Origin: a virus
DNA: 64,000 nt
IMG/VR virus record: IMGVR_UViG_3300036945_000814
Coordinates: 43,026-107,025 of that record
Strand: one strand, 5' to 3'
The notes under the pieces are model-generated. The model searched no databases. It worked only from the letters and a program-made list of their open reading frames with translations, and was not told the DNA's origin. Shown here one piece after another: positions 3,596-64,000 of this stretch. The translations under genes were made by a program, and so were the position numbers. How positions within the stretch are numbered: position 1 is the stretch's first letter; the number at the start of each line of letters is the position of its first letter.

Positions 3596-3632
3596 GTCTC
3601 ACGGTTGACACTACGAATGGAGCGCCTACAAT
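3596..3632 (+). promoter_or_regulatory. Early-type promoter P1, TTGACA-N16-TACAAT
   Basis: GTCTCA at 3596-3601, TTGACA at 3605-3610, a 16-base spacer, then TACAAT at 3627-3632. The arrangement matches three other promoters in the window (57075-57111 minus, 57268-57304, 63566-63602). An ATG at 3640 begins 7 bases after the -10, where transcription should start, so a transcript from here would be leaderless. Confidence 0.75.
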
Positions 3633-6600
3633 GGTTCGCATGACCACACACGACACCATCGAAGACGCTTCCTTCGGTTTGCTGCTCAAGGCCGACATCG
3701 ACGACGCCCTCGACGATCTCGAAAAGGCTTTCGGGTCGGAGCGGGCCGGCCACAAGTACAGCTCCCGCCGACGCAACGCGAAAGGCGAGTGGGAGTACGA
3801 GTACGCCACCGACAAGACGAAGGCGCACGCGCAAATGGCGTTCACCTTCGCCGCGGCGCACGGCACCCCCGAGCAGCAGGATCGCGCCCTCGACGTGCTC
3901 AAGCGCGTCGAGCCGGACAGGTGGCCCGACCACGTCCACGCGGCCAACGTCGCGCACGAGGCCGCGGTCATCCACGCGGCGAACGTCGCCCACGAAGCGG
4001 CCGCCCGACCCCTGCCACCATCGCCAGCGCACGAGCACAGCCCCCCGGCCGCCGCCGCGCCCCCTGCCGTCGTGAGGTTCACGCAGGGCGAGCCCAAGCC
4101 CGCCGTCGCCGCGGCCCGTGCGCTGGATGCCTCCCGTGCGAGCCTGATCCGCGCTGGCATCGGCCTGCGCGCCAACGCAGAAGAGAAGACCCCTATCGAG
4201 GCCGTGGCCGGCCGCGCGGCCGCGCTTCGCAGCTCCGCCTCGTCGCTTTTCAATGAGTCGATCCGCATGGGCATCGTGAACGACGACCCGCGCACCGCGC
4301 GGAAGTTCACGGCCGAGGAACATCGGGCGCTGGCCGCCGCGCACACCGCCCTCTTCGACGAGTTCCGCGAGCTGTACGCGCGCTCGATGACGATGCGCAT
4401 TCGCCCGCCCTCCGGCATGACCGCCGCCGACGCCGATGCGCTCCGCTCCCAGCTCGAACGCGACTTCAAGGGGCACGCCAAGCTCGCTCAAGCCCACAAC
4501 GACGCCGCCAACGCGGCGTCGGGCAAGCCCGCACCCGCGGCCGCTGTGCCGCTCGTGGTCGCGCCTGTGGCGACTTCGGTCGCTCCGGCGCTGGACGCCG
4601 GCCCGGTGCAGCTCATGGACGCCGCCGCCCGCCTCATCGCCGAGCGTGCGAGCGGCGCGCCGCCGGCGTTCAAGGCCGTCGACAACAACCGCGTCACCAT
4701 CGGTGGCGTCAAGATGATCGTGCAGGGTGGCTTCCTCGGCGACGCTCCCGCGCACCGCGCGTGGGCGGAGACGGCCGGCACGTTCTCGGCCGACGCGCAG
4801 CACTTCGACGGCGGCCGGGCCTACCGCGTCGCCACCGAGGCGGAGCGTGTGGCCGCCGTGGCGATGATCCCGCGTCTCCGCGGCTCCGTGAACGTCAACG
4901 CGCCCGCACCGGCCCCTGCCCCGGCGCCCGTCGTCGCCGAGCCCGTGCGCCCCGTCGACGACTTCACCGGCGCGTTCAGGGCGCTGAGTGACGGCAGCGG
5001 CGCCGAAGAGATCGTGACGCTCCCGTCGGGATCCAAGATCGGGCTGTCCTACGTCAGCGGACAGGCCAAGGCGCGCCCCGTCGGAGGCGGCATCGGCCGC
5101 AAATGGGATGCGACCGCGACGAAGCGCGCCCTCGCCGCCTTCGAGGCCAAGGTCGCCGCCCTCGGCCCCGCGTGGCACGCCGCCCACAACGCCATGTACG
5201 GCGTCGCCGCCGCCCCGACGCCGCTCGTGGTGGCGCCCGTGGAGACGGCCGCGCCGAAGCGCAAGCGCGCCAACAACTTCGAGACGATGCCCGACGGCGA
5301 CAGGCCCAACAACTTCGACACGATGCCCGAGGAGATCAAAGACCCGTCGCCGCGCGCCACAAAGATCCGAGAAAACCGCGAAGCTCGCGAAGCCGAAGCC
5401 GCGTTGGAAGCCGGAGCCGAGCGACTGACGGGCGAAGAACGCCACGCCGCCCTGACCCGCATGGGCCAACACTTGCACGAGGTGCAGGACTTCCGGGCCG
5501 GCAAAGACGACACGGGCATGAGCGGCGCCGACATGCTGACGTGGCGCCGATCGACCACCGCACCCCGCAAGGCCAGCGTCCTCCGCAAGTACCGCCGCCA
5601 GCTCGTCGAGAGTTTCGGCGACCTCTACTTCAAGGCCGGGCTGCACGAGAAGGAGCCGATCCCCAAGGGGCACGTTCCTGCCGTCGGCGAATGGACCGAG
5701 CGCGGCGGGCTCGTCATCAAGGCCGACGGCTACCTCGGGACGAAGTTCAACGCATGGAAGAACCTGCTCAAAGAGCACGGCTTTCGCTGGAATGGATCAC
5801 GCGGCGACGAAAGCGCCGACGGGATGCACGCAGAGAAGGCGGCGCTGCTCGACATCCCCGGCTTCATCGAGGCGGCGAACAAGATCGGGATCCATGTCGA
5901 GATCCCCGAGAAGCCCGAGGTCGCCCTCGATGCGCCAGCGGCGGCCAACGAGCCCGAGGCGCCCCTGCCCACGCCCGAGCGGCCGTCGGCGGATCGCCCG
6001 ACGACCACCGAGGACACGCAGCGGGTCATCAACGCCATTCGCGCCAAGCAGGGCCAGCGCGGCACCGTCGCCGTCACCGTGAAGCCCGACGGCAAGTTTG
6101 CTTTCTACGCCGTCGACTACCGCAAGACCGAGGTGCCCGGCTCGTTCAACCACATCATGTCGAACAAGAACGGGCAGATCACCGGGCTCATGGAGGTCGA
6201 CTCCAAGGACGCTTTCTCGCGCACCACCTACGACGCCGCCCTCGTGACCGAGGCGCTTGGCAAGCTCCGCGACGCCAACCCGACCTTCCATTTCTACATC
6301 GACCCGAAGGCCGCCGCCGCCATCGACAAGGCCGGCGCCGACAAGGCCGCAGCCGAGAAGCCGATCCCAGAAGTCGAGGCCCTGCTTGCCGACGGCTTCG
6401 CGCTCAAGCCCTACCAGAACGCGATGGTGCGGTTCCTCGACAGCAACGACGGCAACGCCATCGTCGGCGACGAAATGGGCCTTGGCAAGACGCTGCAATC
6501 GCTCGCGTGGGTGGCGAAGAACAACAAGAAGGCCATCGTCGTCGTCCCCAAGGTCGTGCGCCGCACTTGGATCGAAGAGGCGCACAAGTTTTTCCCCGGA

Positions 6601-7962
6601 CACTTCAACGCGAAAGAGCTGCGATCCAAGGATCTGCTCACGAAGAAGAAGGCCAAGGCCGGCAAGGCCGACGCCGGCGGCCTCTCGTTCATCGACGAGC
6701 TGATGGCAACCGACAGCCCGATGGATCTCACGGGCAAGAACCTCGTGACGGTCAACTACGAGTCGCTTGAGAAGTTCATGCCCTACCTCAAGGCCGCCGG
6801 GTTCGACACGATCATCGTCGACGAATCGCACCGCGCGAAGAACCCGAAGGCGAAGACGACGCAGGTGATCCAAGCCATCGCGAAGACGATGAAGCATCGC
6901 ATCCTCATGTCCGGCACCGCGGTCAAGAACGGCAAGGATGAGCTTTTCACGCAGCTCGAAATGGTGAAGCCCGGCCTGTGGGGCTCGGCGAAGGAGATCA
7001 AGTTTTCCACGCATGGCGCTGCGTGGAACAAGATGCGGGACCACTACCTCGCGCGATCCAAGAAGAACGTGCTCAAGGATCTCCCCGAGAAGACGACCAC
7101 GATCAGCCTGCTCTACGCCCCCGGCGCGCCGGACATCGGCAAGATGAAAGAGCCGACGCCGCCACCGGCGAACGCCACCGCGAAGCAGATTGCGGCCTAC
7201 GAAAAGGCCGCCGAAGAGTGGGAATCGTGGATGGAAGGGGCCGCCGACGGCGACGGCATCAACGAGGACATCGGCGATCTCATGGACGGCGGGTCGTCGA
7301 TCGGCGAGTACAGCCGCGTCCGCGGCCAGCTCGCGCTGGCGAAGGTCGACGGCACCGTCGACATGGTGCAGGAGATCCTTGATAGCTCCGACAGCAAGGT
7401 GCTCGTGTTCACCGAGTCGGTTGCCGCGGCGAAAGCCATCGCCGAAAAGCTCGGCAGCGAGGCGATCCTGCACTACGGGCAGCAGAGCGACGACAAGCGC
7501 GAAGACGCGAAGAAGGAGTTTCAGCGCGAGGGATCCCCCAAGCGCGTGTTCGTCTCGACCCGCCCGTCGCTGGCCGTCGGCGCCACGCTCACGGCCGCCG
7601 ACAAGGTCGTGTTCAACGACCTCCCGTGGACGGCCGCCGACGTGCGCCAAGCCGAGGACCGCGCGCACCGCGTGGGCCAGAAGAACGCCGTCAACGTCTA
7701 CTGGAACGTCGCCGAGGACAACAAGTTCGACGAGAACGTCTCCGCCATCCTCCGCCGGAAGTACGACCTCTCGAAGAAGATCAACGAGGGGCAGCAGCTT
7801 TCGCCCGAAGAAAAGGCGTGGATGAGCAAGCCCGTCACCATGCGCGAAGTCATGGATCGCATCAAGGGCAAGCCCTCCGGCCCGCCCGAGCCCAAGATCG
7901 AAAAGAGCGCCAAGGCGCAGCTCCGCGACATGACCCGCGCGCTGATCAAAGCGGCAAGCTAG
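3631..7962 (+). CDS. SNF2-family helicase fused to a polyvalent-type N-terminus
   Basis: This 1443-residue protein starts with a GHKY module, then Ala/Pro-rich linkers and two PNNFxTMP motifs near residues 546-566. The C-terminal third is a complete SF2/SNF2 ATPase: Walker A GDEMGLGKT near 947, DESH box near 1063, SGT motif III, and QAEDRAHRVGQ near 1345, the SNF2 motif VI. SNF2 proteins translocate on duplex DNA and remodel protein-DNA complexes, so a role in clearing or protecting injected DNA is plausible. Two starts compete: ATG 3631 with GGAG at 3619-3622 for read-through mRNA, and ATG 3640 for leaderless mRNA from P1. It sits between two other polyvalent-type genes. Confidence 0.85.
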   Translation: MVRMTTHDTIEDASFGLLLKADIDDALDDLEKAFGSERAGHKYSSRRRNAKGEWEYEYATDKTKAHAQMAFTFAAAHGTPEQQDRALDVLKRVEPDRWPDHVHAANVAHEAAVIHAANVAHEAAARPLPPSPAHEHSPPAAAAPPAVVRFTQGEPKPAVAAARALDASRASLIRAGIGLRANAEEKTPIEAVAGRAAALRSSASSLFNESIRMGIVNDDPRTARKFTAEEHRALAAAHTALFDEFRELYARSMTMRIRPPSGMTAADADALRSQLERDFKGHAKLAQAHNDAANAASGKPAPAAAVPLVVAPVATSVAPALDAGPVQLMDAAARLIAERASGAPPAFKAVDNNRVTIGGVKMIVQGGFLGDAPAHRAWAETAGTFSADAQHFDGGRAYRVATEAERVAAVAMIPRLRGSVNVNAPAPAPAPAPVVAEPVRPVDDFTGAFRALSDGSGAEEIVTLPSGSKIGLSYVSGQAKARPVGGGIGRKWDATATKRALAAFEAKVAALGPAWHAAHNAMYGVAAAPTPLVVAPVETAAPKRKRANNFETMPDGDRPNNFDTMPEEIKDPSPRATKIRENREAREAEAALEAGAERLTGEERHAALTRMGQHLHEVQDFRAGKDDTGMSGADMLTWRRSTTAPRKASVLRKYRRQLVESFGDLYFKAGLHEKEPIPKGHVPAVGEWTERGGLVIKADGYLGTKFNAWKNLLKEHGFRWNGSRGDESADGMHAEKAALLDIPGFIEAANKIGIHVEIPEKPEVALDAPAAANEPEAPLPTPERPSADRPTTTEDTQRVINAIRAKQGQRGTVAVTVKPDGKFAFYAVDYRKTEVPGSFNHIMSNKNGQITGLMEVDSKDAFSRTTYDAALVTEALGKLRDANPTFHFYIDPKAAAAIDKAGADKAAAEKPIPEVEALLADGFALKPYQNAMVRFLDSNDGNAIVGDEMGLGKTLQSLAWVAKNNKKAIVVVPKVVRRTWIEEAHKFFPGHFNAKELRSKDLLTKKKAKAGKADAGGLSFIDELMATDSPMDLTGKNLVTVNYESLEKFMPYLKAAGFDTIIVDESHRAKNPKAKTTQVIQAIAKTMKHRILMSGTAVKNGKDELFTQLEMVKPGLWGSAKEIKFSTHGAAWNKMRDHYLARSKKNVLKDLPEKTTTISLLYAPGAPDIGKMKEPTPPPANATAKQIAAYEKAAEEWESWMEGAADGDGINEDIGDLMDGGSSIGEYSRVRGQLALAKVDGTVDMVQEILDSSDSKVLVFTESVAAAKAIAEKLGSEAILHYGQQSDDKREDAKKEFQREGSPKRVFVSTRPSLAVGATLTAADKVVFNDLPWTAADVRQAEDRAHRVGQKNAVNVYWNVAEDNKFDENVSAILRRKYDLSKKINEGQQLSPEEKAWMSKPVTMREVMDRIKGKPSGPPEPKIEKSAKAQLRDMTRALIKAAS

Positions 7963-7992
7963 AGTAGATCCGTTCACCCCCGAGGACCGCCC

Positions 7993-10251
7993 ATGAGCAC
8001 CAACGAAGCCACCGCCCTCTTGAACGACTCGCCGCTGCTCAAGTCGGACGACGGCCACAAGTACGTCAAGCGTGAGGGGATGCCCGGCGCCTACAAGTAC
8101 ACCTACGCCGACGGCAGCACCGGCCACACCGAGCACAAGCCCACGTTTCAGCTCGGCGCCGCGGCGCATCAACAGGGCCTCTTCGGCGCCAGCTCCTACG
8201 AGAAGAAGCCGGCGAAGCCGAAGGCCCCCGATCCCTTGGCGCACCGGCAGGTCGATATGTTCGCGCCGAAGCCGGCAGCCGCCACAGCGCCCGCGCCCGC
8301 GCCCGCGCCCGAGCCCGCGTCGAAGTTTGACGAGGTCGTTTCAGCCGCCTACACGCAGCGCGCCCGCGAGGCCGGCGCTGCCTCGGCCCATGCTCGCGAA
8401 ATGGATCAAGCCGGCTACCACGGAGGCATCAGCAACGCCCACAGGCACGCCGCTTCCGCGCATCGTCGAGCCGGCGAGGCCGCCATCGCCCTTGGTCACG
8501 GCGCCAACACCGCCATGCACGGCAAGCAGATGGCGCACCACGAGAAGCAGGCGGATCTCGACGACGACATCGCCGCACGCCACGCCGCAACGCGCAGCGG
8601 TGCCGCAAAGGAGGCTTCCGACCGCGTCATGGCTATCGCCGACAAGGCGAAGAAGACGACGATGGTCGACACGCCCGCGGGGCCGCGTGAGTCCACGCCG
8701 GGCGGGCTCAAATGGTACGGCGACAAGCCCCACAACCCGGAGGCGCTGGCCGCGGCGCGTGAGGCTTACGGCAGCGCCAAGTCCGAAGGCCGCAGCGACA
8801 AGCTGGCCCACAGCAAGGCGTCGAAGGCCGCGCAGAAGCACCTCGGCGGCGTCACCGGCGCGTGGGATCACGCGACGCACGCTCAAGAGCTGCACGATCA
8901 CGCGAACGGGAACCGGCACGAGATCCCCGGCGGCGCCGACCGCGCAGGGCCACCGCCCCGTGCGCCCGCGAAGAAGAAGTCCCCGAAGGCGCAGGCCACG
9001 CACGCGGCCAAGGTCGCCGACGCCGCTTCGGCGAAAGAAAACGCCGCCGATCACGCGCACGACATGGGATCCAAGGCGACCACCCTTTCCACGGCCGCCC
9101 ACCGCCTTTCCAACGCCGGCGGCGACATGGGAAGCGCGAACCACCAAGCCGCGCACGAGGCGCACAAGGCCGCCGCCGCTGCCAACCGCGAGGCCGCCTC
9201 GGCGTTCCAGCAGCCGGGCGCCAGCGTGAGCATTGCAGGCAAGTCGTTCTCGTCGCTGCACGAGGAGCGCGCGAAGGCGCACGACGAGAAGGCCGGCGAT
9301 CACTGGCGCGAGGCGGTCAAGGCGCGCTCCGACGAAGAGGGTGAGCCATTCAGCCAAGCCGCGACGCACAAGGTCGACGGCACGAAGAAGACGGATCTCG
9401 ACAAGCTGCACGAAGGTGTGGCGGACCTCAAGCCATCCGCCATGCGCAGCGACGGGCACTTCACGCGGGCTGCCGACAAGTTCAAGGCGCTGCGCGACCA
9501 CATCCACGAGAAGGTCGGCGCCCATCCCGCGCACGCGCACGCGAGCAAGGCGTTCACCCTCGCCAACACCGCGGCGCAGTCGTCCGGCAGCTACGACGTC
9601 AAGACGCGCCGCGAGCACATGGAAGGCGCGCAGCAGCACGCGCAGAAAGCGATCGACGCGATGAAGGGCATGGGCAAGAGCATGGATCACGAGGTCGGAA
9701 TCTCCCGCTTCCAAGACCGCTCCGCCGGCCGTCCCGCCGCCGGCGGCGTGTACGACGGGCTCGGCTCCGGCATGGTCGATCCCACCGTGGATCGCCCGCG
9801 CTACGCCGGCCGCGCCCCCAATCAGGTGATCGCCGTCGGCGTCGCTGGCGACAGCAACGACCGCAACACCTTCGCCTACCAGAAGGGCCGGCAGTCCGGC
9901 GCCACGTTGGATCTGGCGAAGTCGGCGATGATCGGCGCCGTCAAGGACGGCTACCGGATGCAGCTCATCGCCGTCGCCGACGCCAACCCCGTTGCCTCGC
10001 TCATCATGCGCGGCCGCGTGGAAGGCGAGCGCCCGATGGTGCCCGCCGAGCTGCGCAAGAGTGTGCAGCTTTCCGCGCCCGACCCCGACGCCGTCGTCGC
10101 CTTCGCCGCGGCTGCCCTCAAGGCTGCCAGCGACCGCAACCCGCAGCTTCGGGAAGGGCTCTCGCGCCTCGGCGTCTCCCGTGCCACCCTGTACGCGACC
10201 CTTGAGGCGCTGGCCCTCACACCGGCAGGGATGACCGCCGGCAACCGATAG
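7993..10251 (+). CDS. Ala/His-rich GHKY-module protein, function unknown
   Basis: The 752-residue product opens with a GHKYVKR module followed by YKYTYADG, as in the two preceding genes. It continues with Pro/Ala linkers and a long region packed with Ala-His and Lys repeats that should form helical coiled coils. The C-terminal 150 residues look globular and end in a short helix-turn-helix-like segment (LSRLGVSRATLYATLEAL). No catalytic motif was recognised. ATG 7993 is preceded by GAGGA. The portal gene follows after 8 bases, so this is probably a virion-associated or ejected protein; that is inference from the shared module and position. Confidence 0.6.
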   Translation: MSTNEATALLNDSPLLKSDDGHKYVKREGMPGAYKYTYADGSTGHTEHKPTFQLGAAAHQQGLFGASSYEKKPAKPKAPDPLAHRQVDMFAPKPAAATAPAPAPAPEPASKFDEVVSAAYTQRAREAGAASAHAREMDQAGYHGGISNAHRHAASAHRRAGEAAIALGHGANTAMHGKQMAHHEKQADLDDDIAARHAATRSGAAKEASDRVMAIADKAKKTTMVDTPAGPRESTPGGLKWYGDKPHNPEALAAAREAYGSAKSEGRSDKLAHSKASKAAQKHLGGVTGAWDHATHAQELHDHANGNRHEIPGGADRAGPPPRAPAKKKSPKAQATHAAKVADAASAKENAADHAHDMGSKATTLSTAAHRLSNAGGDMGSANHQAAHEAHKAAAAANREAASAFQQPGASVSIAGKSFSSLHEERAKAHDEKAGDHWREAVKARSDEEGEPFSQAATHKVDGTKKTDLDKLHEGVADLKPSAMRSDGHFTRAADKFKALRDHIHEKVGAHPAHAHASKAFTLANTAAQSSGSYDVKTRREHMEGAQQHAQKAIDAMKGMGKSMDHEVGISRFQDRSAGRPAAGGVYDGLGSGMVDPTVDRPRYAGRAPNQVIAVGVAGDSNDRNTFAYQKGRQSGATLDLAKSAMIGAVKDGYRMQLIAVADANPVASLIMRGRVEGERPMVPAELRKSVQLSAPDPDAVVAFAAAALKAASDRNPQLREGLSRLGVSRATLYATLEALALTPAGMTAGNR

Positions 10252-10259
10252 GAGCCCGC

Positions 10260-12391: not shown

Positions 12392-12436
12392 CATCGGATC
12401 TCAACACTACGGGCGTGCCCCGAAGGAGAAGCAGCA

Positions 12437-18760: not shown

Positions 18761-20200
18761 ATGAGCTACGGTACTTTTGTCGGCGCTTCCGACTACGACG
18801 GCATCGAAGGCTTCGGCTCGGCGAGCGCCGAGGAAATGCAGAACCTCAACAAAGCCTTGCGCTCCGGTCAGGACCGCAACGCCCCCGGCACCGTCGTCGC
18901 TGGCGACGGCTTCACCCTCAAGCCTGAGAGCTTGGATCGCACGTTGAAGAACGTGACGTACCGGATGGAGCACATCCAGTTCTGGAAGTTCCTCGACAAG
19001 ACCCCGGCCTACAACACGGTCGAGGAGTACAGCCGGCTCCGTGAGTACGGCAACGGCGTCGCGGCCTTCATCGAGGAAGGCGAGCTGCCCGCCGAGGACG
19101 ACGCGACCTACTCGCGTGAGTTCAACATCGTGAAGTACATGGGCACGACCCGGCGCATCACGCATGTGATGCAGACCGTGCGCACCCACATCGGCTCCGC
19201 GGTCGCGCAGGAGACGGTCAACGGCACCATGTGGCTGCTCCGGCAGGTCGAGAAGGCGCTGTTCTACGCCGACTCGTCGATGGTCCCGGCCGAGTTCGAC
19301 GGCCTCTTCACGCAGCTCGAAGCGCAGTCGCCGAACATCGTCGACATGCGCGGCAAGCCGCTCAACCAAGACGTGATCGAGGAAGCCGCGCACGTCATCC
19401 GGGCTTCGCCCAACTACGGCATCCCGACGGATCTGTGGATGGCCGACGGCGTCTACAGCGACCTCGCGCGCCTGTTCTACCCCACGCAGCGCAGCGAGAT
19501 CCCGACCCCGGCCAGCGCCGGTGACGGGTACGTCGGCTTCGCGGTGAAGGGGATGCGCACGCAGGCCGGCCCGATCCGGTTCCAGCCCGACGTGTTCATC
19601 GAGCCCGGTCGCGCCCCCGCGGCCGCTGGCATCGGCGACATCGCCAAGCGCCCCGGCCTCCCCACCATCGGCGTCGCCGCCGCTGGCGCCCCCGGTGGCG
19701 GTGAGGTGTCCCTGTTCGTCGGCGCCAGCGAGGACTTCCGCTACCGCGTGGTCGCGAAGAACCGCTACGGCCTGAGCGTCCCCGTGGACGTGAACGGCGG
19801 CGCCGCGATCACCGTGGCCGCCGGCCAGAAGGTGTCGTTCACGATCACCGACGGTTCGCCGTTGGCCTCGTGCTACGTCATCTACCGCACCAAGGCGAAC
19901 GGCCTGCTCGTCGACGCCGTCGAAATGATCACCGTGCGTCGCACCGGCGCCGTCACGGCTTTCGGCGATCTCAACAAGGATCTGCCCGGCACCACGAAGG
20001 CCGCGCTGTTGCAGGGCAACCGCGAGAACATCATGGTCAAGCAGCTCGCGCCGTTCACGCGCATCCCGCTCGCCACCGTCGACACGTCGATGCGTTGGTC
20101 GCAGGTGCTCTACCTGACGCTCACCCTGCACAGCCCGAACAAGAACGTGCTGTTCAAGAACGTCGGCCGCATCGAGGGCACCAAGAACCTCGCCGTCTGA
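18761..20200 (+). CDS. Major capsid protein with probable Ig-like insertion
   Basis: The 479-residue protein follows protease and scaffold genes and has a strong AAGGAG before ATG 18761. The first 290 residues (RMEHIQFWKFLDKTPAYNTV, an E-loop-like charged stretch, YGIPTDLWMADGVYSDLARL) resemble HK97-fold major capsid proteins. Residues about 297-393 form a Gly/Ala/Val-rich beta segment with RYRVVAKNRYGLSVPV and CYVIYRT, typical of an Ig/fibronectin-like domain. The shell fold resumes in the last 80 residues. The insert would decorate the capsid surface. Two hairpins follow the stop. Confidence 0.75.
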   Translation: MSYGTFVGASDYDGIEGFGSASAEEMQNLNKALRSGQDRNAPGTVVAGDGFTLKPESLDRTLKNVTYRMEHIQFWKFLDKTPAYNTVEEYSRLREYGNGVAAFIEEGELPAEDDATYSREFNIVKYMGTTRRITHVMQTVRTHIGSAVAQETVNGTMWLLRQVEKALFYADSSMVPAEFDGLFTQLEAQSPNIVDMRGKPLNQDVIEEAAHVIRASPNYGIPTDLWMADGVYSDLARLFYPTQRSEIPTPASAGDGYVGFAVKGMRTQAGPIRFQPDVFIEPGRAPAAAGIGDIAKRPGLPTIGVAAAGAPGGGEVSLFVGASEDFRYRVVAKNRYGLSVPVDVNGGAAITVAAGQKVSFTITDGSPLASCYVIYRTKANGLLVDAVEMITVRRTGAVTAFGDLNKDLPGTTKAALLQGNRENIMVKQLAPFTRIPLATVDTSMRWSQVLYLTLTLHSPNKNVLFKNVGRIEGTKNLAV

Positions 20201-20207
20201 TGGTGAC

Positions 20208-20225
20208 GCCGGGGTGAACCCCGGC
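20208..20225 (+). repeat. Hairpin after the capsid gene
   Basis: GCCGGGG and CCCCGGC pair around TGAA, just after the capsid stop codon. No T tract follows directly, but a full terminator starts 9 bases later. It may protect or process the abundant capsid mRNA. Confidence 0.6.
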
Positions 20226-20233
20226 TAGGATGA

Positions 20234-20272
20234 GGGCCGTTGCGCGATCCGTGCAACGGCCCTTTCCCTTTT
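20234..20272 (+). terminator. Intrinsic terminator after the capsid gene
   Basis: GGGCCGTTGC (20234-20243) is the exact reverse complement of 20253-20262. The loop is 9 bases and TTTCCCTTTT follows. This is the clearest intrinsic terminator in the window. It ends 12 bases before the next GTG start, so downstream genes rely on read-through. Confidence 0.85.
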
Positions 20273-20284
20273 CGCGGAGACAAC

Positions 20285-20812
20285 GTGGCGAAGAAACTGT
20301 TTTGCAAGTTCACCCACGAGCGCGGCGAAAAAGTGTTCGTCGGCGGCAAGCTCTACGTCATCGGCGCTGACGGGTTCCTTGAGGTGGACGACGCGCACGC
20401 GCCGCTGCTCCTGCTCAACGACGCGAAGTGGGCCGACCCCGCGGTGACGTCCCCCTACAAGCGCCCCACCGGGCCGCCGGCGCTCATCCTCGCCGACGCC
20501 CAAGGCCGCGAGCTTCCCCCGGCCGAGGCGGCCAAGATTCAGCAGGCAGCCGCCCTCAAGGCCGTGGAGCTTGCCACCAAGGCGCCCGAGCCCGAGCCCG
20601 CCCCGGTCCCGCCCGAGCCCGAGGTCGTCGAGCCTGAGCCCGCCCCGGCGGAATGGCCGACCATGAGCACCGACAGCTCGAAGCGCGACATGCTGGCGAA
20701 CCTCGAAAAGCTCAAGGCCGCGGGTCATGTGGCCGCCGCCGACTTCCACGACAAGATGAGCAAGATGGATCTGCTTGAGGTCATCGAGCGCGCCTACGAC
20801 TCGATGGCCTGA
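20285..20812 (+). CDS. Head-completion region protein, unknown
   Basis: The start is GTG 20285 (VAKKLFCKFTHERG), 6 bases after GGAG; the open frame extends upstream into the terminator but those codons are unlikely to be used. The 175-residue product has an N-terminal beta domain (KVFVGGKLYVIGADGFLEV), a Pro/Glu/Val-rich linker and a C-terminal helix pair (KRDMLANLEKLKAAG and KMDLLEVIERAYDSM). It has no recognised family. Position directly after the capsid gene suggests a head or connector role. Confidence 0.55.
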   Translation: MAKKLFCKFTHERGEKVFVGGKLYVIGADGFLEVDDAHAPLLLLNDAKWADPAVTSPYKRPTGPPALILADAQGRELPPAEAAKIQQAAALKAVELATKAPEPEPAPVPPEPEVVEPEPAPAEWPTMSTDSSKRDMLANLEKLKAAGHVAAADFHDKMSKMDLLEVIERAYDSMA

Positions 20813-20873
20813 TCGCGTTGCGCTCACGCGCACGCACCGTGATACTTGAACCACCACCCCACCGGAGGCACCC

Positions 20874-21110
20874 ATGTCCAACCTTTCCGCCGAGCAGAAG
20901 GCCGCGCTCAACAAGCTCGGTGATCACTTCCCCGGCCTCGGTCGCACCGACGGCATCGTCCCCGCGCAGCTCGGCAGCTTCCTCGGTGCCCTCGGCCCGG
21001 TGACGAGCCCCGATGCGGTCGACCTCCCCACGGCGCTCGTCCTGCTCAACGAGATCAAGACGAAGATCAACGCCGCTTGCGCCGCCTCTGCCGTCATCGC
21101 GGCGAGCTGA
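20874..21110 (+). CDS. Small hypothetical protein
   Basis: This 78-residue Ala/Leu-rich helical protein starts at ATG 20874 behind CGGAGG. The 60-base gap before it holds no recognisable feature except the ribosome site. Nothing in the sequence indicates function. The next gene starts 3 bases after its stop. Confidence 0.55.
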   Translation: MSNLSAEQKAALNKLGDHFPGLGRTDGIVPAQLGSFLGALGPVTSPDAVDLPTALVLLNEIKTKINAACAASAVIAAS

Positions 21111-21113
21111 TCC

Positions 21114-21443
21114 ATGATCATCCGAAGCGGGATTCCCAAGCCGCTCCGCGGCACGGCTCCGGCCGTGCCCGGAGCGCCCCTCGCCGACGTGAACGCGCTG
21201 GCGCCGTTTCAGTTTCTGTCGGAGTGCAAGACGTTCTCGGTCTTGCTCGTGAACACCGGGGCCGTCCCGCTGCGCGTGTTCCCGCAGAACCCCGGCCTCG
21301 ATCCGGCACGTTGGATCGAATACTACGAGCTGGCGGTTGGCGAGCGGTTCGATGGGCTGCTTTTCGAGTTCACCGACATGTGGCTCGCCGGCGTCGGTGG
21401 TCCCTGCACGTTCAAGGCCCTGCTTGGCTTGCGCGTGCTGTAG
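21114..21443 (+). CDS. Small structural protein, unknown
   Basis: The 109-residue product contains LSECKTFSVLLVNTGAVPLR and ends in a hydrophobic beta stretch. The composition resembles phage surface proteins with a beta-sandwich fold. It is part of a tight run of small genes between capsid and neck. No family recognised. Confidence 0.5.
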   Translation: MIIRSGIPKPLRGTAPAVPGAPLADVNALAPFQFLSECKTFSVLLVNTGAVPLRVFPQNPGLDPARWIEYYELAVGERFDGLLFEFTDMWLAGVGGPCTFKALLGLRVL

Positions 21444-55772: not shown

Positions 55773-55776
55773 AAGA

Positions 55777-56601: not shown

Positions 56602-56834
56602 CGAGCGGCCTTCTCTTTCTTCGCCGCGAGCTTCGCCTTTCGCGCGGCCGCGGCTTCGATCTTGATCCCCATCCACGCGATCGACTCGATCGGCACGAGG
56701 TAGCGCATCCGCCGTCCCTTCTCTCGGATCTCGACGAGGTCGCCGGGCAAGAGCGTCACGATCAGGACACGGCCGCCTGAGCGGAGCGCGCTGTAGGTTT
56801 CGCGAGAAACGGGCTTGGTGAGCTTGGTTGCCAT
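56598..56834 (-). CDS. Small basic protein
   Basis: The 78-residue product contains GGRVLIVTLLPGDLVEIREK and a Lys/Ala-rich C-terminal helix. A small beta barrel with a basic tail suggests nucleic-acid binding. It overlaps the SprT-like gene by four bases and is second in the leftward operon. Confidence 0.55.
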   Translation of the reverse strand: MATKLTKPVSRETYSALRSGGRVLIVTLLPGDLVEIREKGRRMRYLVPIESIAWMGIKIEAAAARKAKLAAKKEKAAR

Positions 56835-56842
56835 GCAGACTC

Positions 56843-57067
56843 CTAGAGGAAGCGGACAGTCGCGACGGCGCCGGTGACGAAGGCGCCGCCGAAGTGGCCG
56901 GTGAGCCCGATCGTGACCTCGGCTGACTTACCGACGGTGGCGAAAACGAGGTCGTGAGCAGCCCGGATGACCGCAACGCGCGCCGCTTCCACGTCGGGCG
57001 CCGTCGCCGTGAAGTAGACGGTGCTGCCGAAGTCGGCGACGTGAACGGCGGGGGCGGTGTGGTTCAT
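56843..57067 (-). CDS. Small early protein, leaderless start
   Basis: Two in-frame ATGs exist. The one at 57076 lies inside the -10 hexamer and cannot be transcribed from that promoter, so 57067 is chosen, 7 bases after the -10. The 74-residue product (FGSTVYFTATAPDVEAARVA) is a small alpha/beta protein of unknown function and leads the leftward operon. Confidence 0.6.
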   Translation of the reverse strand: MNHTAPAVHVADFGSTVYFTATAPDVEAARVAVIRAAHDLVFATVGKSAEVTIGLTGHFGGAFVTGAVATVRFL

Positions 57068-57074
57068 GCGCTCC

Positions 57075-57111
57075 ATTCTACAGATCGCATTTGTAGTGTC
57101 AAGCGTGAGAC
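57075..57111 (-). promoter_or_regulatory. Early-type promoter P2 (leftward)
   Basis: On the minus strand, GTCTCA (57111-57106), TTGACA (57102-57097), a 16-base spacer and TAGAAT (57080-57075) precede the ATG at 57067 by 7 bases. The layout matches the other three promoters of this set, so the mRNA should be leaderless. Confidence 0.8.
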
Positions 57112-57267
57112 TGAAAATAAATGGATCGGCGCCGCGGATCTGCGCAAATGCTTGGATCTTCGGATGATCTTTCGAGATCCATCGGCGTGTCGCGTTTGGA
57201 TCTTTCGAGGCTGATCCTCCTGATCTGTCGTAAATGTGCGGATCTGCGCAGATCCGCATTATTTTGC
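57112..57267. promoter_or_regulatory. GATC-rich divergent control region, possible origin
   Basis: No gene lies here. About ten GATC sites occur within 57123-57255. A perfect 22-bp palindrome spans 57237-57258, with core GCGGATCTGCGCAGATCCGC. GATCTTTCGAG occurs twice as a direct repeat, and a partial palindrome copy (GCGGATCTGCGCA) lies near 57135. The region is AT-richer than the surroundings and separates divergent promoters. It could bind a repressor or replication initiator. Confidence 0.55.
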
Positions 57268-57304
57268 GTCTCATGCTTGACACCGGAAACGAAGCGCGTA
57301 TGAT
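57268..57304 (+). promoter_or_regulatory. Early-type promoter P3 (rightward)
   Basis: GTCTCA (57268), TTGACA (57277-57282), a 16-base spacer and TATGAT (57299-57304). Unlike the others, the gene start used is ATG 57345 with AGGAG upstream, leaving a leader of roughly 35 bases. Confidence 0.8.
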
Positions 57305-57344
57305 GGTTCTCACGGCACTACCGCCGCAGCACAGGAGCCCGCCA

Positions 57345-57854
57345 ATGACGACCACCACCGCTTCCGTCTCTGCCCGCCGCGCCGCCATCGCCCGCGAGAA
57401 CGCCCGCGCCGACGCCTACCTCGCGAGCGTCGAGAACCAGACCAACCGCTTCATCAAGGCCATCGTCGAGGCCGCCAAGCTGACCGAAGAGAACACGCCC
57501 GTCGTCGGCGGCGGCGCCAACGTCTACGGCTACTCCGACGTCATGGCTCACACCGTGATCTCGGTGAACAAGACCGGCACCGTCGCCATCATCCAGCGCG
57601 ACACCGCGACCCTGCTCAACGGTCACGGCTCGGACGCCGCGGACAAGCTGTCGTTCGAGCCCGGCGGCTTCTGCGGCCACACCTCGGGCCGGCAGCGTTA
57701 CAGCTACGAGCGCAATCCCAACGGCGAAACGCTGCGCATCACCCTCCGCGCCAAGGGCCAGCACGCCGGCACATGGCGCACCAAGGGCGCTGGCACCGGC
57801 GCCGCCCGCGTCCGCTTCGGCACCCGCTCCGAGCACTGCGACTTCAACTTCTGA
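57345..57854 (+). CDS. Early protein, unknown
   Basis: The start is ATG 57345 behind ACAGGAG; an in-frame ATG at 57303 overlaps the -10 and is rejected. The 169-residue product has an N-terminal helix (ARRAAIARENARADAYLASV) and a C-terminal mixed region ending GTRSEHCDFNF. It is the first rightward gene from the GATC-rich region and is probably expressed early. No family recognised. Confidence 0.55.
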   Translation: MTTTTASVSARRAAIARENARADAYLASVENQTNRFIKAIVEAAKLTEENTPVVGGGANVYGYSDVMAHTVISVNKTGTVAIIQRDTATLLNGHGSDAADKLSFEPGGFCGHTSGRQRYSYERNPNGETLRITLRAKGQHAGTWRTKGAGTGAARVRFGTRSEHCDFNF

Positions 57855-57916
57855 TCGCCCGCCGCCCGCGCGCTCGACGCGACGCTTGCCCCGGCCTTGC
57901 GCGGGGCTTTCGGCGT

Positions 57917-58501: not shown

Positions 58502-58821
58502 GGCCGGGCTGCATCATCGCGACAGGGCGGCGATAGGTACTTGCGGGATAGGGATCCGCCCGGCGCGCAACCGCCATTGATCAAGCCCCCGCACAGACCG
58601 CACCAAGCCGATCCAAAACCGCCACCCCTGACTCACCCATCGCCCCCGCCTTTGGGGGTTGGGGGTCGCACCTCGCTTCACGATCGTTACACGTCGATCC
58701 AACCTGTAAGGATCATAAACGTCTACTGTCGTTTTTCTTGGATCTTGGAACGGCGCTGGCGGTGTTTGTGGCGAAGCGCCACAAACACGCAGAAGCTCGC
58801 TTCGCTCGCTTCGGAGGATTC
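58502..58821. other. Intergenic region with hairpins before the helicase gene
   Basis: No convincing gene is seen in these 320 bases. It holds G/C runs (CCCCC and GGGGG near 58656-58670), a short AAACG/CGTTT hairpin with a T tract near 58719-58740, and the perfect hairpin at 58762-58788. No copy of the early promoter motif is present. Confidence 0.5.
58762..58788 (+). repeat. Perfect 12-bp hairpin in the helicase leader
   Basis: GTGTTTGTGGCG (58762-58773) pairs exactly with 58777-58788 around AAG. It ends 24 bases before the ribosome site GGAGG (58813-58817) of the helicase. No T tract follows, so regulation of translation or mRNA stability is more likely than termination. Confidence 0.85.
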
Positions 58822-60282
58822 TTGGACCCGCAGATCCGCATCGTCATGGAGAACAGCTCGGCGCGAATCGTCTTCGCGCCGCCAGCGTTGATCCAGCTCT
58901 TGCGCTACGACCTCTCGTACCTCGCCACCGAGGCGTTCACGCCGTCGGACGACGACGGCTGGGACGGCTGGATCAGGCTTATGGACGCAACCGGCTTCAT
59001 GCCAGCGGGCCTCGTGCCGACCGTGCGGCGCCTGCTCGCCAAGTACCAGATCCCCTACGCCTTCAACGATGCTCGGGAGCGCCCCGACGACGATCTGCCG
59101 CTGCACAGCGGCTTCCAGCTCCGCGACTACCAGCGCCACCTTGTCGACCGCGCCTTGAGCATGGGCCGCGGCGTGCTCGACTCCCCGCCGCGCAGCGGCA
59201 AGACGCTCATGGGCGCGGCCATCATCGACGCGAACCCGCTACACACGCTTTGGATCGCGCCTACCAAGGGCATCGTCGCGCAGACGACCCGCGCGCTCGG
59301 CAAGCTCGCGCTCGGCCCCCGTGGCGTCGTCGGCCTCACCGGAGGCTGGCCGAAGACGGCCACCGTGCCCGGCAAGCGGCGATCCGACGAGCTGCACGAC
59401 ACGCGCGTGGTCGTGACGACGGCGGCGACGGCCGTCAAGGCGCCTGAGAGTTTCTACCGATCGCGCAAGATCCTCGTCGTCGACGAGTTTCACCACGCCG
59501 CCGCGTCGACGTACCAAGAGATCAACAAGCGGGCGTCGCCGATCTACTACCGCTACGGCATGACCGGGACGCACTTCCGCAGCGACGAGAACAGCGAGAT
59601 CCTGATGGACGCGGTGCTGTCCGACGTGATCGGGCGCGTCGAGGTCAAGCAGCTCATCGACCTCGGCTTCCTCGCCCCCGTCGACTTCGTCTTCGTCCCC
59701 GTCGAGGAGCCGAAGCTCGGCCCTTGTGCCCTCGACACGGCCTACCGCATGGGCATCGTGAACCATGAGCGCCGAAACCAATGGGCCGCGTGGGCGGCGC
59801 AGACGCTCATGGCGATGGGCAAGCGGGTCATCGTCCTCGTCAAGCACGTCGCGCACGGCGCCAAGCTGGCAGGGATGATCCCCGGCGCGCAGTTTGTGCA
59901 GGGCGCCGGCGGCAGCGGCGACGACACCGTCACCGACGAAGAGGTCGAAGCGAAGATCCACGACTTCAACGCCGGTGCCTGCCCGTGCCTCGTCGGGACG
60001 TCGGTGCTTGGCGAGGGCATCGACCTCCCGGCGGCCGACGCCCTCGTCTACGCCAAGGGCGGCTCGGCGGCCGTCACCGTCACGCAAGACGTGTTTCGCG
60101 TGCTCACGGCGAGCCCCGGAAAGGCGCGCGCCATCGTCGTCGACTTCGCCGATCGGCACCACGACGGGCTCATCGCGCAGTCGGCGAACCGGGGCAGGAT
60201 CTACTCGCGCGAGGATTCATTTTCGGTGGACGTGCTCGGGCAGCCGATGGATCTCGTCGCGTGGCTCGCCCGCCGGCAATGA
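58822..60282 (+). CDS. SF2 DNA helicase (UvsW/DEAD-like)
   Basis: TTG 58822 with GGAGG four bases upstream is preferred; ATG 58846 lacks a ribosome site. The 486-residue protein has a QLRDYQRHLV Q-type motif, Walker A SPPRSGKT (about 121-128), DEFH (about 220-223), MTGTHF motif III, and GTSVLGEGIDLPAADALVYA plus VTQDVFRVLTASPGKARAIV for motifs V and VI. It is probably involved in replication initiation, branch migration or recombination. Confidence 0.8.
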   Translation: MDPQIRIVMENSSARIVFAPPALIQLLRYDLSYLATEAFTPSDDDGWDGWIRLMDATGFMPAGLVPTVRRLLAKYQIPYAFNDARERPDDDLPLHSGFQLRDYQRHLVDRALSMGRGVLDSPPRSGKTLMGAAIIDANPLHTLWIAPTKGIVAQTTRALGKLALGPRGVVGLTGGWPKTATVPGKRRSDELHDTRVVVTTAATAVKAPESFYRSRKILVVDEFHHAAASTYQEINKRASPIYYRYGMTGTHFRSDENSEILMDAVLSDVIGRVEVKQLIDLGFLAPVDFVFVPVEEPKLGPCALDTAYRMGIVNHERRNQWAAWAAQTLMAMGKRVIVLVKHVAHGAKLAGMIPGAQFVQGAGGSGDDTVTDEEVEAKIHDFNAGACPCLVGTSVLGEGIDLPAADALVYAKGGSAAVTVTQDVFRVLTASPGKARAIVVDFADRHHDGLIAQSANRGRIYSREDSFSVDVLGQPMDLVAWLARRQ

Positions 60283-60330
60283 CGACAAGCGCGTGCGATG
60301 CCGATTGATCAAGGCAGGGATTGTGGTGTA

Positions 60331-60381
60331 CGTTGCGGTTGCTCGCCCCTTCAACGCACGTTGGTTCGAGCAACCGCAACG
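60331..60381 (+). repeat. Perfect 15-bp inverted repeat before the next gene
   Basis: 60331-60345 (CGTTGCGGTTGCTCG) is the exact reverse complement of 60367-60381 around a 21-base loop. Its 3' arm shares 60377-60381 with the 5' arm of the terminator that follows, so the two hairpins exclude each other. Confidence 0.9.
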
Positions 60382-60420
60382 GCCCCTCTCTCCCCCCGGA
60401 GGTGGCCGTTGTTTCTTTTT
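60377..60420 (+). terminator. Terminator or attenuator upstream of the gene at 60429
   Basis: CAACGGCC (60377-60384) pairs with GGCCGTTG (60404-60411), with an inner CCTC/GAGG extension, followed by TTTCTTTTT (60412-60420). The T tract ends 8 bases before ATG 60429. Confidence 0.75.
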
Positions 60421-60428
60421 GGTGCGCC

Positions 60429-61091
60429 ATGAAAGCCAAGCCCAAGCCCAAAAAGGCGAAGAGGGCTCCCGCGCCGCGGTGGACGCTGGCCGCGTGCCCC
60501 GTGGATGCCCCGGCCCGCGAGCTGTGGCGGCCGGAGTGGCGCGATCACGCCACGAGCCTGCTCGTGGCCTACAACGCCGGCCTGCTCAACAACCCGACCC
60601 GTCGGCGCGTGGCAGACGCCGGCCACGTCTCGGTCACGCTCTCCAGCTCGGAGGACGTGCTTGAGGCCCTGTACGCGGTGAGGGTGTGGGCGAAGGCGCA
60701 GGGGGTCGAGCCCGTGGCGTGGGTCCGGTGGAATGGCCGCCGGGTGCGCACGGCCGACAGCGCCGTCGCGCGTCTGCTCCATCTTTTCGACACCGAGCGC
60801 GTGGTGGCGTACCGCTCGGACGCCATGACGAGCGTCAACGAAGCCGACGCGCAGGATGCGGCCCTACACGCTCGTCTCGGGGCGAGCGGGTTCGTTCCGG
60901 GCCGGGATCTGCACGCTGGCGCCGAGCTGGCGAAGCTCCATTTCCTCGATCGAGGCCGCGAGATCCTTTGTCTCGATGCCCACGACATCACTTTTGGGTT
61001 CCACGCCGCGTCCCCCTCGTGTTTGAGGTGTTCGTTGCGCGACCGTTGCAAGGCTGAGACGACGTTTCGTCTCGGAAAGAACCGCCCGTGA
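60429..61091 (+). CDS. Basic Cys-cluster protein next to replication helicase, unknown
   Basis: ATG 60429 is chosen; the upstream part of the frame is inside the terminator. The 220-residue product has a Lys/Pro-rich N-terminus (MKAKPKPKKAKRAPAPRWTL), a central alpha/beta region and CLRCSLRDRC near the C-terminus, a metal- or Fe-S-binding type pattern. It is translationally coupled to the DnaB-like gene (GTGA overlap), suggesting a replication accessory. No family recognised. Confidence 0.55.
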   Translation: MKAKPKPKKAKRAPAPRWTLAACPVDAPARELWRPEWRDHATSLLVAYNAGLLNNPTRRRVADAGHVSVTLSSSEDVLEALYAVRVWAKAQGVEPVAWVRWNGRRVRTADSAVARLLHLFDTERVVAYRSDAMTSVNEADAQDAALHARLGASGFVPGRDLHAGAELAKLHFLDRGREILCLDAHDITFGFHAASPSCLRCSLRDRCKAETTFRLGKNRP

Positions 61092-62461
61092 GCTACCAGC
61101 TTGGCCCGGAGTACCAGCGTGCGCTTCTCCGCTTGTGCCTCGACAACGAGGCTTTCGCGGTGCTCGCCGCGCGGCACCTCAAGCCGGCGTTCTTCGAGAC
61201 GCCGGCCCTGTCGTGGATCTTCTCGACGGTGCAATGGTACCTGTCGACCTACGCGCGGCCGCCGACGGCGCTCGTTGTGCTCGACGCTTGTCGACGTCTC
61301 GACCCGCAGCTCGCCGCGCAGTATTTCCCGACTGTCGAGGGCGTGTGCCTGTCCGTCGTCGTCGAGGAAAAGTACATCGGCGACAAGCTCGTCGAGTTCA
61401 TCAAGCGCAACCTCGTCGTCGACGGCGTCGAGAAACTGCGGCTGCTCTACAACGGCGGCGACGTCGATGCCACGGTCGACTTTTTCCAACAGCGCGCGGA
61501 CGAGATCCAACAAGTAAACGTCGGCGCCGTCGACCGCAGCTTTTTCTTCGAGGAGATTGAGCAGCGCACGGCGCGTCGTCAGCGCGAGGCCGCGCAGGGC
61601 CACCTCTACACGTTCTCGACGGGCGTGCCCGACCTCGACGCCGTGCTCAACGGCGGCTTGAGCAAGGGCGAGCTTGGGATCTGGGTGGCCTACCCGAAGG
61701 TGGGCAAGTCGCACATGCTGCAATGGCTGGCCTACTACGCCGTGCGCGCGCTTCGGATCCCCGTGCTCTACGTCGTCCTCGAAGGCGGCCGGGAGCAGGC
61801 CGAGGACCGTTTCGAGGCGGCTTTCACCTACTCGACGGCAATGGATCTCAAGCACGGCGTCGTCGACGTGAACCGCATGAAGGCGATTCGCGACGAGTAC
61901 CGCGAGCTGAAAGACCTCCTCGTCATCCGCGGCTACACCAAAGACGCAGCGTGGAACGCGAGCGTCAACGACGTCTACGCCGAGATCGTGGACCTTCGCC
62001 AGCGTCGAGGATTCCGCCCGCGGCTCATCGTGATCGACTACGGCGACCTCCTGCACCCTCGCGAGAAGCAAGAGAACGAGGTGCGCTCGCAGGCGGCGGC
62101 GTTCCGCGACATGAAGGCCCTGTGCGACCGTGACGAGGGCTACGCCTTGTGGACGGCTTCGCAGGCGCAGCGGCCAACCAAGGGCGCCGCCGACAACGTC
62201 GACCACATCGTGCGCAGCTCGCAGATCGCCGACTGCTACGAGAAGGTCCGTTGCGCCGACTTCATTGGATCGCTGAATCGCACGAGCGAGGAAGCGCGCA
62301 CCGAGAAAATGCGGATCTTCGCCGAGCTGTACCGCTCGGCGCCGGCGGGCCGGCTGATCGAGGTCCGTACCGACTTCGCCCACCACCGCGCAGTCACGAC
62401 GACGCTGCGCTCGACGCAGTTTGAGGCGGCACATGAGCAGGAGCAGCTTGAGGCATGGTGA
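61088..62461 (+). CDS. DnaB-like replicative helicase
   Basis: The start is GTG 61088; 457 residues. The N-terminal 150 residues resemble a DnaB N-domain. The RecA-like core has a Walker A AYPKVGKS (about 201-208), FSTGVPDLDAVLNGGLSKGE before it, LYVVLEGG, LIVIDYGD as Walker B (about 312-319) and WTASQAQRPTKG. It unwinds the fork as a hexamer. The glycine-poor Walker A is slightly unusual. The primase gene overlaps its 3' end. Confidence 0.75.
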   Translation: MSYQLGPEYQRALLRLCLDNEAFAVLAARHLKPAFFETPALSWIFSTVQWYLSTYARPPTALVVLDACRRLDPQLAAQYFPTVEGVCLSVVVEEKYIGDKLVEFIKRNLVVDGVEKLRLLYNGGDVDATVDFFQQRADEIQQVNVGAVDRSFFFEEIEQRTARRQREAAQGHLYTFSTGVPDLDAVLNGGLSKGELGIWVAYPKVGKSHMLQWLAYYAVRALRIPVLYVVLEGGREQAEDRFEAAFTYSTAMDLKHGVVDVNRMKAIRDEYRELKDLLVIRGYTKDAAWNASVNDVYAEIVDLRQRRGFRPRLIVIDYGDLLHPREKQENEVRSQAAAFRDMKALCDRDEGYALWTASQAQRPTKGAADNVDHIVRSSQIADCYEKVRCADFIGSLNRTSEEARTEKMRIFAELYRSAPAGRLIEVRTDFAHHRAVTTTLRSTQFEAAHEQEQLEAW

Positions 62462-63506
62462 CGACGCCGACTTCGCCCTCGCGCTGTCGAAGTTTCCTCT
62501 CGTGCCGTGGCTTGTGCGGCACGGCTTCGTCGCGCAAGGCCGGGCGAAGCTGGAGTGGCTGCACGACTGCCCGTGGTGCGGCGGCGAAGACAAGCTGTCG
62601 GTGAATCCGTCGCGGAAGTTCTGGCGCTGCTTCGTGTGCGCCAAGCAGTTTCAGCTCTTGGATCTGCTCGCGGCGTTCGACGGCGGCCACGCCGCTGCCG
62701 CCGAGATCGTGCGGGCCTCGTCAGGCGGCCGGTCGCTCACGCTCATCCCCGAGGACTACCTTGAGGCGGCGGCGCCGTCGCGGCCGTCGACGTGGGAGCC
62801 GGAGCCCATCGCGCCGCCGGAGAGTTTTGCGCCGCTGCACGCCCACATCGAGTACACCGCGCGCCGCGGGCTCGACCTCGACAACATGCGCCGGCTCGGC
62901 GTGGGCGTGTGCTCGTGGGGGCGCTATCAGGATCGGCTCGTGTTCCCCGTCCGCCGGTGGGATGGACATTGGATCTACTTCCAGTCCCGCGCGACGTGGG
63001 AGAAGCGCGACCACGACGAGCTGACGAGCGGCAAGTACCGCAAGAACCTCAACCCGGCCAACGACAACCCGCTCCGCTTCGCGTCGGCGGGCGACGTGGT
63101 GCTCGGCTTGGAGCTGGCCTCCGCCTACCAGCGCATCGCCATCGTCGAGGGGCCGACGGACTGGATCCAGAGCGGACCCGACGCCGTGGCCCTCTTCGGC
63201 AAGGCGCTGTCCGATCGCCAGATCATGCTTCTGGCGCGCGCTGGCGTGCGTGAGGTCGACGTGTGCCTCGACCCCGACGCATGGGAGCGCCCGACCATGA
63301 AAGACCGGGCAGGGCACGTCGTGATCCTCGACAAGCCCCCGCCGGCGAAGCTCGTGGCCGACCGGCTCGCGCAGCATTTTGTCGTGCGTGTCGTGCGTTA
63401 TGCCGATGGAATGGATCCCGGCGCGCACACCCCGGTCGAGAACCACGCCATGCGGGCGACGGCCGAGCTGTGGGGCAACGGATCCAGACTGGCGCAGATC
63501 CCGTAG
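62433..63506 (+). CDS. DNA primase (zinc ribbon and Toprim)
   Basis: ATG 62433 is the first ATG of the frame and overlaps the helicase gene by 29 bases; TTG 62421 is an alternative. The 357-residue protein has a CPWC and CFVC zinc ribbon (about residues 47-70) and a DnaG-like Toprim core with IAIVEGPTDW (about 235) and DVCLDPDAW (about 277). It would make RNA primers alongside the DnaB-like helicase. Confidence 0.8.
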   Translation: MSRSSLRHGDDADFALALSKFPLVPWLVRHGFVAQGRAKLEWLHDCPWCGGEDKLSVNPSRKFWRCFVCAKQFQLLDLLAAFDGGHAAAAEIVRASSGGRSLTLIPEDYLEAAAPSRPSTWEPEPIAPPESFAPLHAHIEYTARRGLDLDNMRRLGVGVCSWGRYQDRLVFPVRRWDGHWIYFQSRATWEKRDHDELTSGKYRKNLNPANDNPLRFASAGDVVLGLELASAYQRIAIVEGPTDWIQSGPDAVALFGKALSDRQIMLLARAGVREVDVCLDPDAWERPTMKDRAGHVVILDKPPPAKLVADRLAQHFVVRVVRYADGMDPGAHTPVENHAMRATAELWGNGSRLAQIP

Positions 63507-63522
63507 CAGATCCATGCAAGGT

Positions 63523-63542
63523 GGCGGATCTGCGAGAGATCC
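63523..63542. promoter_or_regulatory. GATC-containing imperfect palindrome upstream of P4
   Basis: The sequence GGCGGATCTGCGAGAGATCC resembles the 57237-57258 palindrome (GCGGATCTGCG...GATCC). It lies 32 bases before the P4 -35, within a 65-base stretch holding five GATC sites, and may bind the same regulator. Confidence 0.5.
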
Positions 63543-63565
63543 AATGAATCGCCATGCCGCGCACA

Positions 63566-63602
63566 GTCTCATGCTTGACACCATAAACGCGGCGTGTAGA
63601 AT
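63566..63602 (+). promoter_or_regulatory. Early-type promoter P4
   Basis: GTCTCA (63566), TTGACA (63575-63580), a 16-base spacer and TAGAAT (63597-63602), with the ATG 6 bases later at 63609. This is the closest match to the shared consensus and implies a leaderless mRNA. Confidence 0.8.
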
Positions 63603-63608
63603 GGACTC

Positions 63609-64000
63609 ATGAACACCACCGACCGCACCGCCATCTTCGCCTCCGCCCTCCGCCACCTCGCGGCCAACTTCGGGACCGACCGGGCGTTGACCCTCACCAA
63701 CGACGAGGCAAAGGCGGTCTACGCGCTCCTCTTGGTGCAGCCGGGCGTCGTCGCCGCGTCGGAGGAGCAGGAGGCCGAGATCGAGCGCCAGCGTGTCGCG
63801 CACATCGCCGGCATCAAGGCCGTCACCGAGAAGTCCCTGCCCGCCGGCAGCACGTTCACGGTCACGGCCGAGGGGCAGCTCGACTACAAGAACACGCCGT
63901 GGATGCGCCCTGTCGTCGACGGCGCCGTCTGCACCGTCCGCCGTTACCGGATGCGCTCCAGCAACGGCTGGAAGACGCGCGAGCTGTCTTTCACCTTCAC
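63609..64000 (+). CDS. Early protein, unknown (3' partial)
   Basis: The frame from ATG 63609 is open to the window end. An ATG at 63601 is rejected because it stops after three codons. The visible 130 residues have an N-terminal helical region (TAIFASALRHLAANFGTD, AKAVYALLLVQPGVVAA), a coiled coil and a beta-rich C-terminal part (GSTFTVTAEGQLDYKNTP). No family recognised. It has its own early-type promoter. Confidence 0.55.
   Translation, partial: MNTTDRTAIFASALRHLAANFGTDRALTLTNDEAKAVYALLLVQPGVVAASEEQEAEIERQRVAHIAGIKAVTEKSLPAGSTFTVTAEGQLDYKNTPWMRPVVDGAVCTVRRYRMRSSNGWKTRELSFTF

Follow-up and report, generated by a model that had tools for sequence, protein, structure and literature searches.

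In the temperate Streptomyces phage phiC31, the early promoters carry conserved inverted repeats that are bound by the c repressor. In phages lambda and 434, the HTH_3-type proteins Cro and CI bind as dimers to sites of about 14-17 bp that overlap the -35 or the -10 of early promoters, where Cro turns the early genes down; in such temperate phages the lambdoid operators form triplets within a single switch region, and the lambda cI message made from PRM is leaderless. Leaderless transcripts are also made by the Thermus phages P23-45 and phiYS40, while SPO1 relies on phage sigma factors for its later gene classes. In the Cluster A mycobacteriophages (L5/TipsyHippo), a helix-turn-helix repressor acts at the early lytic promoter and at many stoperators, binding as a monomer to an asymmetric site and also stopping elongation away from promoters (PMC9283540). 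Leaderless transcripts have likewise been reported in mycobacterial hosts (PMC4633059).

The phage described here carries seven copies of a promoter whose -35 lies within a palindrome, and we consider it somewhat probable that these form a regulon of host-sigma-70 promoters with a putative dimeric operator over the -35, which would be shut off by the phage's own HTH_3 protein, g022. As in phiC31, palindromic sites stand at several phage promoters (predicted early ones here) and would, as proposed here, be read by one phage protein; phiC31 differs in being temperate, in the form of its early promoters, and in having operators and a regulator that are, as far as is known, unrelated in sequence to those described here. 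There was no sign of lysogeny genes among the proteins scanned, and an immunity-type repressor is therefore not implied. The Cluster A system shares with this one a helix-turn-helix phage protein (a candidate here) and repeated sites, whereas the site in this phage is symmetric, with all exact copies at promoters; as opposed to the lambdoid triplets, one operator would serve each of several dispersed promoters. What is shared with the leaderless transcripts of Thermus phages and mycobacteria is a start codon that coincides with the (predicted) transcription start or lies a few bases from it at most, its place being set by the distance from the -10, although here most genes are SD-led and leaderless starts occur only in this promoter family. 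They are absent in a diverged relative, G001 (IMGVR_UViG_3300049489_000993, 89 kb), which is syntenic with this phage and has a capsid protein 78% and a DnaB protein 67% identical to its own.

The gene content is that of a myovirus, with a major capsid protein of the SPO1-like family, portal, tail sheath, DnaB-like helicase, primase, DNA polymerase and UvsX-like recombinase. All but the last of these are points of likeness to SPO1-like (Herelleviridae-type) phages, and the capsid protein is about 34% identical to those of Bacillus phage relatives. Unlike SPO1, this phage (G000) gave no Sigma70_r4 match, and neither did G001, controls being positive; the SPO1-type middle/late scheme is thus not seen, and a phage sigma factor as driver of the regulon was rejected on the same ground. 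Scans of parts of the record detected neither a structured RNA family nor a tRNA. The kind of system is known, and the family described here is a new, well-defined member of it in a little-known phage group.

The 107,025-bp record contains seven exact copies of GTCTCAYGSTTGACA, as opposed to no match for the reversed-pattern control. Six are on the plus strand (record starts 18974, 23606, 24584, 46621, 100293 and 106591) and one is on the minus strand (record start 100136); four of the seven lie in the window, which is the whole 64-kb stretch of DNA analysed here, and three lie outside it in the same record. All seven have the -35 TTGACA, a 16-bp spacer and a -10 of the form TAnnAT, as in sigma-70-type promoters, and they are the record's only TTGACA/TAnnWT promoters. 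The conserved element is GTCTCAYGSTTGACAC, one base longer than originally noted. Exact matches to GTCTCAYGSTTGACA in the window are confined to the four sites, and six further matches each need three mismatches, with about 4.7 expected by chance at up to three mismatches. TTGACA-N15..18-TAnnAT occurs four times in the window against a mean of 0.01 in shuffled sequence, and none of 100 shuffles reached four. With a 40-bp weight matrix the seven copies score 50-68 bits, the next-best genome site 6.6 and reversed sequence below 0, a gap that is informative but not independent, the matrix having been trained on the same seven copies. The four window sites are as the sequence-only reading had described them in sequence, strand, 16-bp spacer and TAnnAT, with nothing comparable in shuffles, and at three of the four the ATG does lie 6 or 7 bases past the -10. 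The promoters and their genes are arranged in the window as follows.

3596..3632, plus strand: promoter copy 1; palindrome 3596-3611, -35 at 3605-3610, -10 TACAAT at 3627-3632; ATG at 3640, 7 bases past the -10
3640..7962, plus strand: SNF2/DEAD-type helicase gene, 1440 aa, read from copy 1 and predicted leaderless; its start agrees with the N-terminus of the G001 orthologue
56843..57067, minus strand: 74-aa gene, no function assigned, predicted leaderless; heads a minus-strand group, one of whose products is weakly SprT-like
57075..57111, minus strand: promoter copy 2, divergent from copy 3; palindrome 57096-57111, -10 TAGAAT at 57080-57075; ATG at 57067, 7 bases past the -10
57236..57259, plus strand: terminator-like hairpin with GATC, then TATTTT, directly upstream of copy 3; leaves an A+T-rich stretch before the promoter
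57268..57304, plus strand: promoter copy 3; palindrome 57268-57283, -10 TATGAT; leader of about 33 nt with AGGAG, ATG at 57345; not leaderless
57345..57854, plus strand: 169-aa gene (phrog_19789), no function assigned, downstream of copy 3
63566..63602, plus strand: promoter copy 4, after the primase gene, as in G001; palindrome 63566-63581, -10 TAGAAT; ATG at 63609, 6 bases past the -10
63609..64000, plus strand: gene with no function assigned, predicted leaderless; runs off the window

At copy 1 another ATG (3631) overlaps the -10 and is not usable as a start if this promoter is used. Several copies have A+T-rich bases before GTCTCA and, just upstream, hairpins of the form GGATCTGCGCAGATCC with T-rich sequence, so that some resemble an insulated promoter placed behind a terminator. 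GATC, which is present in intergenic hairpins beside the promoters, occurs 953 times in the record, about three times above the 327 predicted from base composition, and is also raised in G001 and other relatives. The sequence at 63609..64000 recurs at the start of the record, where it leads into DNA polymerase and recombination genes; record positions 1-377 and 106649-107025 (the end of the window) are repeats of each other with small differences. The record is therefore terminally redundant, though classed as being without end repeats, and is probably close to complete.

The GTCTCA that precedes the -35 lies outside the usual sigma contacts. Together with TGACAC, which holds most of the -35 box, it makes up a 16-bp imperfect palindrome, GTCTCA-N4-TGACAC. 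About an axis between bases 8 and 9 of the element, 6 of 8 pairs are symmetric in six copies and 5 of 8 in one, and if the A of the ATG is numbered +1, the palindrome runs from about -43 to -28, with its centre at about -35.5. TTGACA occurs 11 times in the whole genome, counting both strands; 7 of the 11 are symmetric about this axis at 5/8 pairs or more, as is each of the seven promoter copies, while about 1% of genome positions reach 6/8. In two phages GTSTCA-N4-TGASAC lies over the -35 at 10 of 10 sites (seven here and three in G001), a two-fold symmetric site overlapping the promoter core elements in every case, with the left half GTCTCA invariant throughout. Exact matches to the palindrome are found in this phage and in G001 at promoters only, so that L5-like stoperator sites away from promoters were not seen among the exact palindromes of either phage; with one mismatch, only two matches in 107 kb lie off the promoters.

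The first of the three exact palindromes in G001 follows the primase gene and the second lies between the structural and replication modules, both matching positions in this phage by gene order, while the third stands ahead of the SNF2 helicase gene, as in this phage, though in G001 that gene lies downstream of portal and head genes. The helicase gene is thus at different places in two syntenic phages (window 3640-7962; G001 locus L041, 9827 onward), with a palindromic promoter each time, and the gene seems to have moved along with its promoter. Two of the G001 copies have TTGACA with 17-bp spacers and one has TTGAGA with 18 bp; the -10s are weaker than here, one of the three being CAATCT, and all three copies have SD leaders. 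At the helicase copy, TTGAGA is a worse -35, yet the outer six palindrome pairs are perfect, a change that selection for a two-fold symmetric site, and not for the -35 alone, would leave.

When viral contigs were scanned with the motif, the promoter pattern GTCTCAYGCTTGASACN{14,17}TANNNT matched G001 only among 2.9 million contigs, a search from which the window's own record was possibly excluded. The 15-mer GTCTCATGCTTGACA alone gave 30 matches in the 2.9 million contigs, none with a matching promoter behind it, and these were set aside as chance; CTTGACACCGGAAACGA was found in three contigs, all without the palindrome or a similar promoter. A search for relatives with the DnaB protein alone gave no match, and a two-sequence alignment gave ten contigs. 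Two fragments with a capsid protein 94% identical (L058 and L059) end short of any promoter site. The sole lead to a host from the genome scans is a capsid protein 48% identical to this phage's, encoded on a Myxococcales MAG chromosome (CP070713.1; L072, 10001-11419); the gene possibly belongs to a prophage or a mis-binned phage, and the hint at a host group is weak.

In the mechanism that we favour, the host's main RNA polymerase (sigma-70-type) would use the seven elements as strong promoters, and the set would become active immediately on DNA entry, supplying replication, helicase and small host-takeover-type genes; early expression of such a regulon is plausible. A dimeric helix-turn-helix protein bound to the 16-bp GTSTCA-N4-TGASAC would then cover the -35 and block sigma region 4, turning the whole set down together once the regulator had accumulated. 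The best candidate for this binder is g022, a 142-aa HTH_3 protein (record 20022-20450; HTH at 81-133, Pfam E = 1.7e-8). It is encoded by the third gene of a run from the promoter copy at record 18974, followed by DNA methyltransferase and dUTPase genes, and being transcribed from that copy it would limit its own synthesis. This arrangement of an HTH_3 gene directly before a DNA methyltransferase gene (record 20022-21341) recalls the controller proteins of restriction-modification systems.

HTH_3 (Cro/CI-type) matches number exactly one each in this phage and in G001, in a DNA-binding-domain scan that covered part of the phage proteins. The two proteins are 36% identical overall, with the recognition-helix sequence GVSRATxAR conserved, and the solved structure nearest to g022 by sequence is 3b7h, Prophage Lp1 protein 11 (E = 3.5e-4). 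No HTH_3 protein was found in four more distant relatives, which likewise lack an exact palindrome match, although this co-occurrence sets two related phages against four distant ones and is confounded by ancestry. No palindrome lies just upstream of the g022 orthologue in G001, and autoregulation is therefore not conserved there.

Five of the seven copies have the ATG 6-7 bases after the -10, at the expected +1, and their transcripts should be leaderless. Three of the five genes have an in-frame stop 9-30 bases before the ATG, and within 40 codons of the five ATGs no SD-led alternative start was found. The remaining two copies are followed by leaders that carry an AGGAG/GGAG ribosome-binding site and end in GGAGCCCGCCAATG. 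An SD-like site precedes 89 of 115 predicted genes, while a control interval gives 12. The genes were predicted with a simple codon-usage caller in which SD sites carried some weight in the choice of start, which somewhat inflates the 89. Leaderless starts are thus likely a feature of most promoter copies and not of the phage's translation in general.

The sequence-only reading had proposed a phage-specific regulon with leaderless translation and had left open whether GTCTCA was an activator site or an operator half-site. The repeated sigma-70-type regulon stands, as do start codons at the expected transcription start in most copies, and GTCTCA as an operator half-site gains from its pairing with the -35 as a palindrome. 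That leaderless translation defines the regulon, with GTCTCA as an upstream activator site, is very unlikely in spite of the five ATGs at the expected +1, because two of the seven copies in this phage and each of the three G001 copies are followed by SD leaders, whereas the palindrome persists at 10 of 10 sites; leaderless translation is best read as a secondary, lineage-specific addition, by which the first genes at five copies would be read as leaderless mRNAs. An activator, of phage or host origin, could also bind the palindrome itself and switch the regulon on, and not off, which would suit the invariant upstream half and the imperfect -10s (TAGGAT, TATGAT). Classical class II activator sites are centred near -41.5, however, and a single site per promoter that covers the whole -35 hexamer, itself the consensus TTGACA, makes activation unlikely: binding would more probably repress.

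The regulator could be a host protein instead, its operator being exploited by the phage to sense the state of the cell, as lytic phages can borrow host sites. With the pattern in no other phage but G001 among the contigs scanned, and with an HTH_3 protein encoded by each of the two phages, we regard this as decidedly unlikely. The likeness among the copies might also be ancestry, a promoter-start cassette having been duplicated recently with its leaderless ATG copied along and with no common regulator. Four copies do share nearly the whole spacer (CCGGAAACGAWGYGCG, with ATGAACACC common to three) and may be recent duplicates, which would inflate the apparent conservation; but the palindrome is kept at record copies 46621 and 100136, where the spacers have diverged, and at the three G001 copies despite changed spacer and leader, and positions are conserved between the two phages, so that ancestry without a regulator is highly improbable. 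Repression through a dimeric operator over the -35, with g022 as the candidate binder, is accordingly the reading that we retain.

A parallel is found in a more distant relative, G004 (109 kb; DnaB 39% identical), which has five promoter-like sites, four of them exact (G004:C1 16565-16590, 16899-16924, 29206-29231, 33494-33519 and 106654-106679 (minus strand)). There TATAAT is the centre of a different, near-perfect palindrome, CTTGATTCTG-TATAAT-CAGAATCAAG, with TTGACA 16 bp upstream at three sites, whose genes have SD leaders. The same general design, host-type promoters with a built-in symmetric, putative operator, is thus present in another sequence and at another place, which raises the likelihood of the operator reading for the window sites and makes the leaderless one less central. 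No obvious repeated promoter family of their own was seen in three other relatives (G002, G003 and G005). It is possible, if doubtful, that phages of the SPO1-like clade each have an operator-promoter family of their own, whose sequence and position change rapidly.

An uncultivated, poorly known SPO1-like group thereby gains a readable regulon, with seven promoters, one operator sequence and one candidate regulator. Across two phages the putative operator is conserved and the leaderless starts are not, and leaderless starts should therefore not define such regulons, while the finding of another palindrome in G004 hints at a general design with quick turnover. If a separate regulator does serve each such family, the early genes of virulent myoviruses would be under a fast-diversifying, immunity-like switch in the absence of lysogeny, and such a switch could also shut out superinfecting relatives.
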